Shown piece after piece: positions 2,325 to 32,230 of a stretch of 32,230 bases of DNA. How positions within the stretch are numbered: position 1 is the first letter of the stretch; each line of letters begins with the position of its first letter. The notes below the pieces were generated by a model, which made no database searches, had not been told where the DNA came from, and was given only the letters and a program-made list of their open reading frames with translations. The DNA is from Methanobrevibacter sp. GTDB taxonomy: Archaea > Methanobacteriota > Methanobacteria > Methanobacteriales > Methanobacteriaceae. The translations under genes and the position numbers were made by a program. Location: contig NZ_JAFSNZ010000071.1 of assembly GCF_017447225.1 (NCBI RefSeq), positions 1 to 32,230 on the forward strand, written 5' to 3'.

Positions 2325-4496
2325 CTATTTCATAGTAGCTACTGCACCGCCATGCAGGAACTGGTATACTAGACCTTCAGTTGACGGATATGAACAGTGC
2401 TTAATGTTATTTGAACTCAGATACTGAGCGACATTGCTGATATAAGGGTCGTTAATACTGAAGTTGTCATCCCAGGCTCTTTGAGCTGAATAACCTGTGA
2501 AGTCACCATAACGGTACGGACCCATTCCATCAGGATTTGTCCAGTTGATTGTATCCCAAACAGGCACACATACAACGTTTTTGGATTTCAGGACATTCTG
2601 AATATAACTTGAAGCAAGCTCTCTTATGGTTCCTGCGCAGAATCCGTTATAGATGTTTATGAGAACATAATTCGCTGGAGTATTGAAGTAATCCTTATAA
2701 TGTGAGTTACTGTCAGTTTCACCTACCTTAACATTCCATCCAGCGGCAGTCAATGCCCTTGCAAGATCCCATTTTTTATCGTCTGATCCGCCATCGGCAT
2801 CAATATAGACATTCTTGCCTGATATGCCATAAGGATTGTTGATATTTTTCAATGCATCCTGAGAAATAACAGTTACAGAATCCGCCAAATCAGCGTCATA
2901 GTCCCAGACGAAGGACATTACACGTGTAGAGATAAGCAGATAATCATTGAAGCTAAGCTTGCCCATTGGGGTGTCAACAGTGCTTGGAACCTTATTGTCT
3001 TTAGCTATTTGAGATGAAAGATTATTTGCAATGCTTACGAATTCATCTTTTTTAAGCAAACATGAATCAGTAGTAGCTGCACTTGTTGAATCTGGCCCTT
3101 TGACACCATCAATTATTTTAATGTCTGAATAATTTGAGGATCCTAATTGGGAAATTGCCTTGTTCATCAGATAGAAGAATTCGGGCATGGTAAATCCATA
3201 GAAAGGAGCCTTGATTGTAGCTGGGAATTTGCCGTTTTTCTCATAATATGCATTCAAGTCATTTGCAGCTTTAGCAATATCATAAACAGAAAGTGTAACT
3301 GGCTTGACAATTACCTTATTTGATATTGCAGAACCGTTGAACATAGAAGTTATGATGTATTCAGCCGGAAAGAGATTAATGTTGAGCTTTACCTGGCCGC
3401 TGGCATTGGTTGTCCTGTGATATAGCACTCCGTTAATATTGAACATCACATCCTGATTTGGATATAACTTACCCTGGCCATCAAGCAATGTAGCAACAAA
3501 AGGTTCGGAATGGCCGTAATATTTAACCAGGTCGTCTGCATACAATATAGGAAGAACCTTAATATTGTTTGACACAATGCTTCCGAGATACTGTGCGGAA
3601 ATCACATAATCTCCCGGAGCTAAGTTAATGTTCAGTTTACATATGCCGCTTGAGTTAACAGTACGATCATAAAAGACTCCATTAATATTGAATGTTACAT
3701 TTTCGCCGACTGCGGGCTTTCCGTCATTGCCGTAGACCTTCAAAGTATACTGGGTAGCGTTTTTAAAGTACTTTACAATATCCCTGTTTTCGCCGAATTT
3801 GGAAATGACCGTGATATTATTGGATTTCATCTCACCAGTAATTAAATTCAGTGCAGTGATAATATAATCTCCAGAGCCCAGATTAATATTTAATCTGGCC
3901 AAACCTTCATTGCCGTTGATTTGACGATTGTATAAAACGCCGTTGATATTGAATTGGATGGTAGTACCATTTGCAAGATAATTGCCTTTTCCGTCACGGA
4001 ATGTGGCATAGTACTGAGTATCATTTTTTTCCATTTTAACAATGTCAGTTCCGTTTATCGTGTCCAAAACAGTTACTGTGGAATTGATTATATGAATCTT
4101 ATATGATGAGGTGACGGGATATTCGCCGGGTCTTAGATTTAAAGCGATTGAAGCAACACCATTGGAATTGGTGATTCTATTGTAGTTAACACCATTGATT
4201 TTAATTGTTACGCTTTCATTGGAAATAGGATTGCTGTTGCTGTCCAAAAGAGTAACATTGAATCTTTCATTTCCGCCGAAATATTTGGTAATATCCGGAG
4301 CAGTTATTATTGCATCACCGGATTCATTATCATTTGCTGATAATAAGTCTTCATTTTCAGATAAATCAAGATTAATGTCTGAGTTGTCAGATGACAGAGT
4401 ATCTGAATCGGACTGAATGAAATCATCACTAGCACAAACGCTAGAAATTGATAAAATTAAAAATAAAGAGCAAATCAATATAAATTGCTTTTTCAT
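2325..4496 (-). CDS. Secreted adhesin-like protein with Ig-like repeats and pseudomurein-binding repeats
   Basis: A 723-residue exported protein. Residues 1-23 form a signal peptide ending in Cys-Ala-Ser. An acidic Ser/Asp-rich linker follows to about 65. Four Ig-like repeats then lie at roughly 67-145, 150-232, 238-315 and 320-398, each with a core like NINGVLYxR...LNINLxPGDYxI. Two segments at about 402-455 and 480-535 match the pseudomurein-binding repeat (YDIAKAANDLNAYYEKNGKFP, then a MPEFFYLMNKAI-type helix), which anchors proteins to the Methanobacteriales wall. The last 165 residues are a separate alpha/beta domain with GKNVYIDADGGSD and several Trp/Cys/His residues. It does not show the Cys-His-Asp pattern of pseudomurein endopeptidases that I would expect. 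It is probably a wall-anchored surface protein, and a hydrolytic role for the end domain is open. The start is preceded by GGAGTG. Confidence 0.8.
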   Translation of the reverse strand: MKKQFILICSLFLILSISSVCASDDFIQSDSDTLSSDNSDINLDLSENEDLLSANDNESGDAIITAPDITKYFGGNERFNVTLLDSNSNPISNESVTIKINGVNYNRITNSNGVASIALNLRPGEYPVTSSYKIHIINSTVTVLDTINGTDIVKMEKNDTQYYATFRDGKGNYLANGTTIQFNINGVLYNRQINGNEGLARLNINLGSGDYIITALNLITGEMKSNNITVISKFGENRDIVKYFKNATQYTLKVYGNDGKPAVGENVTFNINGVFYDRTVNSSGICKLNINLAPGDYVISAQYLGSIVSNNIKVLPILYADDLVKYYGHSEPFVATLLDGQGKLYPNQDVMFNINGVLYHRTTNASGQVKLNINLFPAEYIITSMFNGSAISNKVIVKPVTLSVYDIAKAANDLNAYYEKNGKFPATIKAPFYGFTMPEFFYLMNKAISQLGSSNYSDIKIIDGVKGPDSTSAATTDSCLLKKDEFVSIANNLSSQIAKDNKVPSTVDTPMGKLSFNDYLLISTRVMSFVWDYDADLADSVTVISQDALKNINNPYGISGKNVYIDADGGSDDKKWDLARALTAAGWNVKVGETDSNSHYKDYFNTPANYVLINIYNGFCAGTIRELASSYIQNVLKSKNVVCVPVWDTINWTNPDGMGPYRYGDFTGYSAQRAWDDNFSINDPYISNVAQYLSSNNIKHCSYPSTEGLVYQFLHGGAVATMK

Positions 4497-29528: not shown

Positions 29529-30530
29529 TTATTTGTTCATTGCTTTTTCAACGGCCACTGCCACAGCTACGCTTGCACCGACCATCGGATTGTTACCCAT
29601 ACCGATCAGTCCCATCATTTCCACGTGAGCAGGAACTGAAGATGAACCGGCAAACTGGGCATCTGAATGCATTCTTCCCATAGTGTCTGTCATACCATAG
29701 GATGCAGGACCTGCAGCCATGTTGTCAGGGTGCAGGGTTCTTCCGGTACCTCCTCCGGATGCAACTGAGAAGTATTTCTTGCCCTGTTCTATGCATTCCT
29801 TCTTATAGGTTGCAGCCACAGGATGCTGGAATCTTGTCGGGTTTGTTGAGTTACCTGTAATTGACACGTCAACTCCTTCAAGATGCATTATAGCAACACC
29901 TTCACGAACATCATCGGCACCGTAACATCTTACCTTTGCCCTTTCGCCATCGGAGTATGCCTTTTCACGCACAACCTTAACTTCACCGGTAAAGTAGTCG
30001 AATTCAGTCTGAACATAGGTGAAACCGTTGATTCTTGAAATGATTAATGCAGCGTCCTTTCCAAGACCGTTGAGTATAACCCTTAAAGGCTCTTGGCGAA
30101 CCTGGTTTGCTGAGTTTGCAATTCCTATTGCTCCTTCAGCAGCTGCGAAACTTTCGTGGCCTGCAAGAAATGCAAAGCAGCTTGATTCTTCACTTAAAAG
30201 CATTGAAGCAAGGTTACCGTGACCTAATCCGACTTTCCTGTCATCTGCAACACTTCCCGGAATACAGAATGACTGAAGTCCTTCACCTATTGCTTTTGCA
30301 GCGTCTGCAGCTTTGGTGCAGTCCTTTTTGATTGCAATTGCAGCTCCAACAGTATATGCCCAGCAGGCGTTTTCAAAGCAAATCGGCTGAACGCCCTTTA
30401 CGATTTCATATGGGTCGAAACCTTTGTCAAGACAAACCTGTCTTGCTTCCTCAAGATCCTTAATGCCATATTCGTTAAGTACAGGAAGTATCTGATCTAT
30501 TCTTCTTTCATAACTTTCAAATAAACTCAT
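29529..30530 (-). CDS. GGGtGRT protein
   Basis: A 333-residue protein of the GGGtGRT family, named for the motif seen at residues 259-265 (SVASGGGTGRTLHPDN). The family is found with an NifU-like scaffold gene, and the gene directly upstream here is one. The chain has two earlier Gly-rich segments (GLGHGNLASM near 101-110 and FLAGHESFAAAEGAIGIANS near 121-140) and conserved cysteines (33, 51, 56, 71, 89, 118). No transmembrane segment is present. The biochemical role is unknown; a role in Fe-S or thiol cofactor handling is suggested by its partner. The ATG at 30530 is preferred over the GTG at 30539, because GGTGG with that GTG forms the ribosome site. It starts 16 bases after its partner. 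Confidence 0.88.
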   Translation of the reverse strand: MSLFESYERRIDQILPVLNEYGIKDLEEARQVCLDKGFDPYEIVKGVQPICFENACWAYTVGAAIAIKKDCTKAADAAKAIGEGLQSFCIPGSVADDRKVGLGHGNLASMLLSEESSCFAFLAGHESFAAAEGAIGIANSANQVRQEPLRVILNGLGKDAALIISRINGFTYVQTEFDYFTGEVKVVREKAYSDGERAKVRCYGADDVREGVAIMHLEGVDVSITGNSTNPTRFQHPVAATYKKECIEQGKKYFSVASGGGTGRTLHPDNMAAGPASYGMTDTMGRMHSDAQFAGSSSVPAHVEMMGLIGMGNNPMVGASVAVAVAVEKAMNK

Positions 30531-30545
30531 AAATTCCACCCATAA

Positions 30546-31238
30546 TCATTCTTTTCTAGGATCAATTGTTTTGACAGCATCATCAAATCTTCCGTACTGC
30601 CCGCTTGCCTTTTCAATAGCTTCTGCAGGGTCAACACCGTCTTTGATGGCGTCAAGCATGATTCCCAGATTGATATATTTATATCCTATAATTTCGTCAT
30701 CTTCATCAAGAGCTATTTCGGTAATGTATCCTTCGGTAAGCTCCAGGTATCTTGGGCCTTTCCTGTTTGTTGAATAGATTGTGCCTACCTGGCTTCTGTG
30801 GCCTTTACCTAAATCCTCAAGGCCTGCTCCTATAGGAAGGCCGTCTTCTGAAAATGCTGACTGAGTTCTTCCGTAAACGATTTGCAGGAAGAGTTCACGC
30901 ATAGCAGTATTGATTGCATCGCACACCAGATCGGTATTCAATGCTTCAAGAATGGTTTTTCCAATCAGAATTTCACCGGACATTGCTGCTGAGTGAGTCA
31001 TGCCTGAGCATCCGATAGTCTCAACCAGAGCTTCCTCAATAATACCGTTCTTAACGTTTAAGGTTAATTTACAGCACCCCTGCTGAGGTGCACACCAGCC
31101 TATACCATGAGTCAAACCGGAAATGTCAGAGATTTCCTTGGATTTAACCCACCTGCCTTCTTCAGGTATTGGTGCAGGACCGTGATTTGCCCCTTTAGCA
31201 ACAGGACACATATTTTCTACTTCATTTGAATATATCAT
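30546..31238 (-). CDS. NifU-like iron-sulfur cluster scaffold protein
   Basis: A 230-residue protein with an IscU/NifU-like scaffold domain at about residues 40-140. Cysteines 11, 49, 55, 56 and 77 are visible; Cys77 sits in ETIGCSGMTHSAA, which is the conserved scaffold C-G-S/C-S-x-x pattern, and WCAPQQGCCKLTL is typical of the methanogen form paired with GGGtGRT proteins. The 90-residue C-terminal extension (GPRYLELTEGYITEIALDEDDEIIGYKYINLG...) is specific to this subtype. The ATG at 31238 is chosen over a TTG at 31244 because AGGAG lies eight bases before it. It starts the operon with GGGtGRT. Upstream lie two copies of a structured element (see 31323-31612). Confidence 0.85.
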   Translation of the reverse strand: MIYSNEVENMCPVAKGANHGPAPIPEEGRWVKSKEISDISGLTHGIGWCAPQQGCCKLTLNVKNGIIEEALVETIGCSGMTHSAAMSGEILIGKTILEALNTDLVCDAINTAMRELFLQIVYGRTQSAFSEDGLPIGAGLEDLGKGHRSQVGTIYSTNRKGPRYLELTEGYITEIALDEDDEIIGYKYINLGIMLDAIKDGVDPAEAIEKASGQYGRFDDAVKTIDPRKE

Positions 31239-31244
31239 TTTCAA

Positions 31245-31322
31245 TCTCCTGAATAATTACTAGTATATTTGTCCATTCATAATATTAAATTATTCTAAAA
31301 AAAGTTGGGAATAGTTATATTT
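31245..31322. other. Promoter-proximal spacer of the scaffold operon
   Basis: On the minus strand this contains a TATA-like TTATAAATATA (about 31314-31324), which abuts the end of the structured element, and a T7 run (31297-31303). Transcription from this TATA would start near 31290, giving a leader of about 50 bases; transcription from further upstream would instead include the structured copies. Confidence 0.4.
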
Positions 31323-31420
31323 ATAATCAATGTCTTAATTTGAGATTGAAAAAACCTCACAAAATTCCCGAGACATTGAATTCATCATCAAAGTTTGTTT
31401 AGTGAAATAATAATTTCACT
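31323..31420 (-). ncRNA. Structured RNA element, copy 1
   Basis: 98 nt, nearly identical to copy 2 (31515-31612). On the minus strand it has a 5' hairpin AGTGAAAT/ATTTCACT (8 bp, 4-base loop), a variable linker, and a closed domain. That domain has an outer stem TCAATGTCT/AGACATTGA (9 bp) enclosing GGGAATTT and a hairpin TGTGAG/CTCA with a U-rich loop. A T7 run follows 20 bases after (31297-31303). The minus strand is preferred because copy 2's change in the outer stem keeps pairing only there. It lies 85 bases upstream of the scaffold gene start. No known class is recognised; it may be an sRNA or a leader/riboswitch-type element. Confidence 0.5.
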
Positions 31421-31514
31421 ACAATAACTAATATAAAATATCTAATATTTAAAAATAATCATTTCCCTTTAAATTAACTACAAGAAAAATTACAGTACAA
31501 AAAAAGTATTTCAA

Positions 31515-31612
31515 ATAATCAATGCCTTAATGTGAGATTGAAAAACCTCACAAAATCCCCGAGACATTGATTTACCACATTCCAAGTTTGTTTAGTGAAA
31601 TAATAATTCACT
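31515..31612 (-). ncRNA. Structured RNA element, copy 2
   Basis: Same 98-nt length as copy 1, with a period of 192. Differences: one outer-stem change giving U-G in place of U-A (a mismatch if read on the plus strand), one change that makes the inner stem TGTGAG/CTCACA perfect, single-base indels in the loop and 5' hairpin, and a divergent linker. A T7 run follows 10 bases after its 3' end (31499-31505), as in copy 1. A strong TATA-like ATAAATATATATA (31658-31670, minus strand) lies upstream, predicting a start near 31635. The conserved fold with changed linker is the pattern of selection on structure. Confidence 0.5.
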
Positions 31613-31735
31613 TCGAATTATTAAAATAATTCTATTAATTAATTTATTACTTACTCCTATATATATTTATTTGAATTTGTGTGAAAATTGATTATAATCC
31701 ATTTCAGAAGGGAAAATATACCTCTTATCAATAAA

Positions 31736-31764: not shown

Positions 31765-31817
31765 AATCATCATTAATATCCTATAATCAAAAATTCACAC
31801 TCTTAGGAGATGAAAAA

Positions 31818-31961
31818 ATGAATCACGATATTTATACCATAATCTTAATTAAAATTAGGACAAATATCATTAAAAGCCTAAATGAAAGGTCTTTAACAAC
31901 CAAGTTGAAATTCAACTTGAAATCCATAATTTTCACCTCCCAACCTTGGAATGTAAGCTGA
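31818..31961 (+). CDS. Small ORF (47 codons) antisense to the membrane-peptide ORF
   Basis: An ATG at 31818 with TTAGGAGATGA eight bases upstream, a good ribosome site, begins a 47-residue frame (MNHDIYTIILIKIRTNIIKS... ending QPWNVS). It covers the minus-strand 31-codon ORF completely. The product would be basic and moderately hydrophobic with no known motif. Both strands carry a ribosome site, so at most one may be real. This strand's site is slightly weaker than that of the minus-strand ORF. Confidence 0.3.
   Translation: MNHDIYTIILIKIRTNIIKSLNERSLTTKLKFNLKSIIFTSQPWNVS
31832..31927 (-). CDS. Small hydrophobic peptide (31 residues)
   Basis: The ATG at 31927 follows GGGAGGTGAAA by about six bases; GGAGGTGA is a full match to the archaeal anti-Shine-Dalgarno and is the strongest ribosome site in the window. 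The peptide has a short amphipathic start (MDFKLNFNLVVKDLSF) and then a single hydrophobic helix of about 14 residues ending IKIMV, so it would sit in the membrane. The in-frame start at 32014 has no ribosome site. Codons 4-10 fall in a perfect 9+1+9 inverted repeat (31901-31919), which could fold in the message. No family is recognised. Confidence 0.5.
   Translation of the reverse strand: MDFKLNFNLVVKDLSFRLLMIFVLILIKIMV
31901..31919. repeat. 19-bp perfect inverted repeat within the small ORFs
   Basis: CAAGTTGAA-A-TTCAACTTG has perfect 9-base arms around a single A. On the minus strand it falls just after the start codon of the 31-residue ORF and its good ribosome site, so it could act on translation as an RNA stem or be an operator-like site. 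Confidence 0.5.
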
Positions 31962-32230
31962 AATAATAGATTAATACTACAATCACAAATATGAATGAAT
32001 GCAGTTAATATCATATCATTTTCAGTAGGTTATTTTTGAGGCATATTTTCAATTAATATGTTGAATTTCAAAATATATAAACTTTTTTGACGATTTAAAG
32101 ACCTTAAAATTACTATCTGATTAAAATATTGCTTTAGGAGAGTAAAATTGTACCAACTCGTAAAACAATTAATTTCACATAAAAAATAACCCTATGTTAA
32201 AATGAATTAATGATTAAATACACGACAATA
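31962..32230. other. AT-rich right end with no clear gene
   Basis: No convincing frame or RNA is seen. AGGAGAG at about 32136-32142 precedes a TTG-initiated 13-codon frame, too short to support. The end of the window cuts the spacer, so a promoter for a gene to the right may lie here. Confidence 0.4.

Follow-up and report, generated by a model that had tools for sequence, protein, structure and literature searches.

A structured RNA of Methanobrevibacter as candidate antitoxin in a type I toxin-antitoxin-like unit with a short hydrophobic peptide

The last 986 nt of the window analyzed here (the whole 32,230-nt stretch of Methanobrevibacter contig NZ_JAFSNZ010000071.1) lie upstream of a nifU-like gene and carry two copies of a structured RNA on the minus strand. 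We judge it probable (about 0.72) that this RNA is half of a type I toxin-antitoxin (TA)-like module whose other half encodes a short hydrophobic peptide. The RNA occupies one half of a unit of ~600 nt, and a peptide open reading frame (ORF) lies ~300 to 355 nt upstream of it on the same strand. An earlier note on this DNA had described the RNA copies and had left two choices for them, tandem small RNAs or a sensing leader. Three features go beyond that note: the peptide ORF at 31832 to 31927, a TATA-like box for the RNA, and an inverted repeat between the RNA's linker and the peptide ribosome-binding site (RBS). The RNA features in the window, with putative promoter and predicted RNA ends, are as follows.

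31499 to 31633, minus strand: small RNA (sRNA) B, ~135 nt, predicted from a match to model R2, covariation, and linker/peptide-RBS pairing
31615 to 31632, minus strand: hairpin 1 of sRNA B
31595 to 31611, minus strand: hairpin 2 of sRNA B
31573 to 31594, minus strand: putative targeting linker of sRNA B, complementary to the peptide RBS
About 31515 to 31572, minus strand: core stem of sRNA B
31499 to 31505, minus strand: run of seven T's close behind the stem of sRNA B, as in relatives
31654 to 31671, minus strand: TATA-like box of sRNA B, AATAAATATATATAGGAG, a box enriched across copies
31323 to 31419, minus strand: sRNA copy A, a probable diverged duplicate matching model R2
31402 to 31419, minus strand: hairpin 2 of copy A
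31382 to 31401, minus strand: linker of copy A
About 31323 to 31381, minus strand: core of copy A
31297 to 31303, minus strand: run of seven T's 3' of copy A, probably within the upstream element of the nifU-like gene

Gapped BLAST placed the copies at 31323 to 31420 and 31515 to 31612, with 89% identity and starts 192 nt apart, bearing out the 98-nt length and 192-nt period first described. Model R2 scored copy B at 78.3 bits and copy A at 64.3 bits. Both fold on the minus strand in the order already described, a hairpin, a linker, and a two-stem domain (shuffle z scores of −2.3 and −3.4 for the 98-mers). On the minus strand, the T/C difference in the outer stem is one of U-A against U-G, and on the plus strand it gives C-A, in line with the earlier view that pairing is kept on the minus strand only. 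Covariation across 54 copies agrees. The minus-strand reading is right because 96.8% of cells in these copies were paired, compared to at most 43.8% when the stem was slid. Of the note's two choices, the first is supported, with the small RNAs lying in tandem and read from the minus strand. Its remark that the copies differ mainly in the linker was a useful hint, since the linker appears to be the targeting region.

The first covariance model, built from seven copies, matched 33 of 67 genomes of the genus. The refined model, built from 54 copies and run on 151 genomes of the order at an E value of ≤1e−3, matched 49, comprising 44 of the 67 and 5 genomes of a second genus, g9, with no match in the other 17 genera. 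The covariance searches found more than 140 RNA copies, patchily distributed and up to 11 per genome, including copies in the single-contig genomes G004, G007, and G085. Within the 54 copies, both sides had changed in 14 of 19 pairs, a pairing record matched by 0 of 500 shuffles; no more than 1 of 500 shuffles reached any of five covariation measures, and sliding the partner by 1 to 3 columns cut pairing to 34 to 44%. A further 94 matches, mostly outside model building but with an alignment fitted to the model and hence leaning towards it, had 92.6% of cells paired and double changes in 18 of 19 pairs. The earlier note proposed to look for the fold and for pair-preserving changes elsewhere; the model matches 49 of 151 genomes, other genomes do show pair-preserving changes, and strong covariation supports the predicted fold at the sequence level. 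A TATA-like box at −130 to −45, mostly 60 to 90 nt ahead of the core, was found in 120 of 140 copies, compared to 20 ± 4 in shuffles. In a tandem copy in G003, the duplication runs from the TATA-like box onward, which would follow if a whole small gene had been duplicated.

Rfam searches of the window and of seven further loci gave no family at the gathering threshold, and at an E value of ≤5 the region of the RNA copies yielded nothing beyond chance matches, consistent with the earlier impression that no known RNA class fits. BLAST with the 301-bp region returned mostly AT-rich spacer matches plus four true relatives within the genus; the one in G016 had compensatory-looking changes and a second unit. 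Viral contigs gave 17 exact pattern matches, none with a stricter pattern and none with the covariance model, and genome-wide pattern matches outside Methanobrevibacter were taken as mostly chance. Two other loci in the window's genome, G000, were seen in these searches. L095 (C31, 3029 to 3097) is a long hairpin matched by models R1 and R2 on both strands, probably terminator-like and outside the family. L079 (C60, 2730 to 3018) holds a second tandem RNA pair with identical linkers and without a clear cognate peptide.

The genes downstream of the two copies define the setting for the note's second choice, a two-copy sensing leader.

30546 to 31244, minus strand: nifU-like gene, with a weak NifU_N match
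29529 to 30539, minus strand: GGGtGRT gene (PF14057, E value of 1e−198)

An aptamer or attenuator leader for this Fe-S/GGGtGRT operon would fit the presence of RNA copies upstream of the nifU-like gene, with T-runs behind them, in G000, G018, G005, G016, and G003. Most copies, however, lie at other, unrelated loci, and in 54 of 137 cases the gene that follows the RNA lay on the opposite strand, out of reach of a same-strand 5' UTR. Where the nifU-like gene does follow, its distance from the RNA ranges from 70 to ~900 nt among species. A TATA-like box and a T-run belong to the RNA itself, a separate conserved element precedes the nifU-like gene, and the variable linker follows the peptide RBS rather than nifU, leaving the leader very improbable. 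Both T-runs named in the earlier note exist; the one behind copy A probably belongs to the upstream element of the nifU-like gene. An element, TTTTTTTAGAATAATTT, that includes the T-run at 31297 to 31303 recurs in L019 and L003 at a distance from any RNA copy, and this run is therefore probably not the terminator of copy A. Elsewhere in the window, 2325 to 4496 on the minus strand encodes a large adhesin-like protein that has Ig-like repeats and weakly matches a pseudomurein-binding repeat.

The proposed toxin gene and the site facing the RNA linker lie further upstream.

31832 to 31927, minus strand: ORF for a hydrophobic 31-residue peptide, MDFKLNFNLVVKDLSFRLLMIFVLILIKIMV, a toxin candidate with homologues in G018 and G016
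31931 to 31954, minus strand: putative antisense target, ACATTCCAAGGTTGGGAGGTGAAA, an arm of the inverted repeat that holds the Shine-Dalgarno (SD) sequence GGGAGGTG at 31934 to 31941

The peptide has a GRAVY score of 1.53, and its SD a ΔG of −15.8. Alignments of the ~600-nt unit contained a short, SD-led hydrophobic ORF before the RNA in three sequence groups, encoding peptides of 25 to 34 residues, mostly with GRAVY values of 0.6 to 2.1 and with a strong SD. In the 140 units with enough upstream DNA, an SD-led hydrophobic ORF of 20 to 45 residues at −420 to −240 was found in 84, compared to 8 when the reverse strand was read and 4 in shuffled sequence, at thresholds that overlook some peptides and admit a few wrong starts (MVIWV and MEKFK). 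At these thresholds a peptide ORF is missing for about 40% of the RNA copies, some of which are true orphans. Pfam and NCBIfam had no family for the unit peptides. Synonymous changes outweighed nonsynonymous changes between the window peptide and its G018 homologue (pS, 0.32; pN, 0.06), and a purifying trend (dN/dS, 0.43) was seen in pairs picked by protein similarity. Without that choice, differences at codon positions 1, 2, and 3 numbered 971, 690, and 1,082, a weak and mildly suggestive pattern.

BLAST with the 31-residue peptide found only four loci, and profiles were therefore used. A profile of group-2 peptides, built without RNA information, gave 64 matches at an E value of ≤2.2e−4, and in 59 of them the RNA lay 200 to 245 nt downstream on the same strand. 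Two of the other five were at contig ends, two had weaker RNA matches where the RNA was expected, and one had none. The RNA is thus present ~200 to 245 nt downstream in 61 of 62 assessable peptide loci, as expected of an antitoxin that accompanies its toxin, and by sequence peptide genes without the RNA are nearly absent. In the exception (L243, G012:C73, about 1015 to 1090, group 2), the usual 3' UTR is replaced. A near-identical peptide with its RNA lies on C57 of the same genome, and protection from the C73 peptide in trans is therefore possible.

The link between the two halves is a 24-nt inverted repeat joining linker and RBS (31577 to 31600 and 31931 to 31954). In the window, linker B and the preceding hairpin arm can pair with ACAUUCCAAGGUUGGGAGGUGAAA, covering the SD, and the predicted duplex of linker B with the target has an energy of −26.6 kcal/mol, matched by 1 of 500 shuffles. 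The same layout in the second genus gave −26.6 kcal/mol in G085, with a 16-bp run and 0 of 500 shuffles. The single copy in G007 gave no pairing signal (351 of 500 shuffles). Its locus, L099 (C1, about 1,576,680 to 1,577,066), keeps peptide and RNA with linker/RBS complementarity absent, and the unit is perhaps decayed or differently regulated. At L004 (G016:C82, 1000 to 2480), two full peptide-RNA units stand one after the other ahead of the nifU-like gene, and the best partner of each RNA there is its own peptide RBS.

Copy A pairs weakly with the window peptide RBS (−14.9 kcal/mol, 25 of 500 shuffles) and better with the peptide RBS of L063 from a related species (−21.9 versus −14.9 kcal/mol on its own), weak hints that it has another or a lost target. 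As a candidate regulator of another gene it was set aside, its 17-nt pattern occurring perfectly nowhere else in the genome. Because of this weak pairing and the lack of an adjacent T-run, copy A looks like an extra or decaying, diverged antitoxin copy, and copy B is the candidate cognate antitoxin of the window unit.

Pairing was also specific to the unit across the family. The RBS with the 5' domain and linker had a predicted energy of −17.06 kcal/mol for cognate pairs compared to −13.1 ± 0.3 kcal/mol for permuted pairs (0 of 2,000). Permutation controls for shared ancestry only in part, and the cognate advantage persisted when it was confined to one peptide group (0 of 2,000). The same test showed no cognate effect for core stem, ORF, or upstream control segments. 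Sliding windows placed the effect at −30 to −10 of the mRNA and in the 20 nt preceding the core stem, with position-scan peaks at mRNA −30 (z score, −15) and linker −20 (z score, −12). Within a genome, the best RNA partner was the cognate one for 30 of 38 RBSs. ORFs with the MVIWV and MEKFK starts are still included in the permutation, sliding-window, and best-partner tests. They were removed before three others: a per-unit test against shuffled linkers, in which 55 of 71 units reached a P value of ≤0.01 and 16 failed; a map of 806 window pairs; and the upstream-ORF count given below. The median longest helix was 11 versus 8 in shuffled linkers. The map had a single dominant peak, linker against RBS (z score, −14.7), weaker peaks for an mRNA 5'-3' fold-back (−4.8) and an ORF-start/3' UTR stem (about −4), and two further cells (−5.2 and −4.7) that fit no proposed element and may reflect shared ancestry. 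On this evidence, the linker is the predicted targeting region, complementary to the RBS of the peptide mRNA from the same unit.

These pairing tests also bear on another reading, a non-autonomous dispersed repeat of MITE or REP type with accidental ORFs. The copies are indeed many, AT-rich, and intergenic, and they are dispersed, as in the counterexample raised by the earlier note, but not at random, being half of a conserved peptide-RNA unit. Species share sites (the nifU locus and the same flanking genes at L066 in G012 and L070 in G015), compensatory changes occur in stems and in RNA-mRNA pairs, and SD-led ORFs are far above chance. The dispersed-repeat reading, disfavored by the cognate-pairing test, is barely credible.

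The peptide mRNA is itself predicted to be structured.

32069 to 32082, minus strand: TATA-like box of the peptide mRNA, GTTTATATATTTTG, a putative promoter at a position conserved in group-1 relatives
32038 to 32050, minus strand: 5' fold-back arm, GAAAATATGCCTC, from the minimum free energy (MFE) fold and a pair-map peak
31712 to 31724, minus strand: 3' fold-back arm, GAGGTATATTTTC, from the MFE fold and the pair map
31806 to 31818, minus strand: 3' UTR anti-SD, TTTTTTCATCTCC, predicted to pair with the SD in cis
31782 to 31800, minus strand: 5' arm of a possible 3' UTR inverted repeat, GTGTGAATTTTTGATTATA, seen in the sequence and outside the MFE fold
31679 to 31696, minus strand: 3' arm of that repeat, TATAATCAATTTTCACAC

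With assumed ends at 31679 and 32052, the window mRNA folds at −100.6 kcal/mol (z score, −5.8), and its SD pairs with the 3' UTR anti-SD at a probability of about 1. Pairing of RBS and 3' UTR is cognate specific across units (0 of 2,000), and the predicted folds place the SD in sequestration in cis. An SD-led upstream ORF that starts ~100 nt before the peptide ORF and reads across the peptide start was found in 47 of 70 units, mainly in group 2, compared to 0.4% in the control. Group 1 had it in 1 of 8 units, and none is clear in the window unit.

These elements suggest a mechanism in which both RNAs are transcribed and pairing represses translation. The first gene would give an mRNA for the very short hydrophobic peptide, silent at full length, with its ends paired and its SD held by the anti-SD of its own 3' UTR. 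A second gene further down that strand, which carries a separate TATA-like box and T-run, would give the ~135-nt RNA. This RNA combines one or more small hairpins with a linker that is unpaired and specific to the unit and with a stable stem domain. Once the mRNA was processed or refolded, the linker (in group 1 joined by the 3' strand of the hairpin before it) would pair just upstream of and over the SD, covering the RBS and keeping ribosomes from loading. Loss of the RNA would set free the peptide, which presumably enters the membrane and does harm when overabundant. Antitoxin-only copies should then be tolerated and toxin-only copies should not.

The same anatomy could serve a peptide that is no toxin but a small regulatory membrane protein, for instance a component or modulator of some membrane complex, with a base-pairing sRNA devoted to switching its translation. 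A harmless membrane protein under sRNA control would be indistinguishable here, as all the pairing evidence is equally expected for it; the hydrophobicity is a prediction, and the peptides lack a family in Pfam or NCBIfam. Against this stand the patchy, multicopy distribution, the use of one RNA scaffold by dissimilar peptide groups, the unit-specific targeting, and the RNA being tolerated alone while the peptide almost never is. Together these traits are typical of addiction-type loci, and we regard a nontoxic peptide as unlikely. For the type I TA-like module, three defining traits are present in the sequences: a small hydrophobic peptide, a complementary RNA, and an RNA that accompanies the peptide.

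On balance, we favor the view that these loci are the first archaeal type I TA family, with a hok/mok/sok-like logic that would have evolved independently, an RNA encoded behind the peptide gene in the same orientation, a single scaffold whose changeable linker chooses the toxin, and surplus copies of the antitoxin alone, copy A among them, which may act in trans. A 2025 paper places type I TA systems in three bacterial phyla only, plus its own cyanobacterial case (PMC12390103), and no report of an archaeal one was found in the open-access library searched. If this view is right, more than 140 loci in gut methanogens extend type I TA to a second domain and supply archaeal base-pairing sRNAs with known natural targets and targeting that can be read from sequence. 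TAfinder 2.0 (TADB 3.0) requires a toxin gene and its antitoxin RNA to lie on opposite strands (PMC10767807), whereas here they share a strand, by construction in the unit search and independently in 59 of 64 peptide matches. This is a search rule and not a mechanistic requirement; it would hide these loci and, if they are TA modules, explains why strand-based finders miss them.

The closest parallel is hok/mok/sok of plasmid R1 in Escherichia coli, which likewise has a short hydrophobic peptide, an antisense RNA at the translation-initiation region, and a structured mRNA with a hidden SD. Paired ends, as in hok mRNA, are also predicted here, and most units have a mok-like overlapping upstream ORF, unlike the window's group-1 unit, which has no clear one. 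The behavior of hok/mok is summarized in PMC4147584. The systems differ in that sok overlaps its target on the opposite strand, in that complementarity here is ~10 to 16 bp rather than tens of nucleotides, and in the archaeal promoter-like elements of these units; Pfam, NCBIfam, and Rfam showed no homology of peptide or RNA to hok/sok.

A hydrophobic peptide with a separate sRNA gene of limited complementarity also recalls tisB/IstR-1, to which shoB/ohsC and zorO/orzO are comparable. To our knowledge, known pairs of this type are divergent or otherwise placed. The TisB peptide has 29 residues, and IstR-1 and tisB share 21 nt of complementarity in the 5' UTR (PMC4147584). The Microcystis pair msoT1/msoA1, the first type I TA reported beyond Proteobacteria, Firmicutes, and Tenericutes (PMC12390103), similarly carried type I TA to a new phylum from genome evidence; it is bacterial and was assayed in E. 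coli, whereas the loci predicted here are archaeal. In archaea, sRNA162 of Methanosarcina mazei also base pairs with mRNAs, but it is not a peptide-linked multicopy module, and its authors draw a contrast between it and a type I TA system (PMC3510493). From tisB/IstR-1 the units described here differ in an RNA that lies downstream on the same strand and in a scaffold that is conserved across dissimilar peptide groups.
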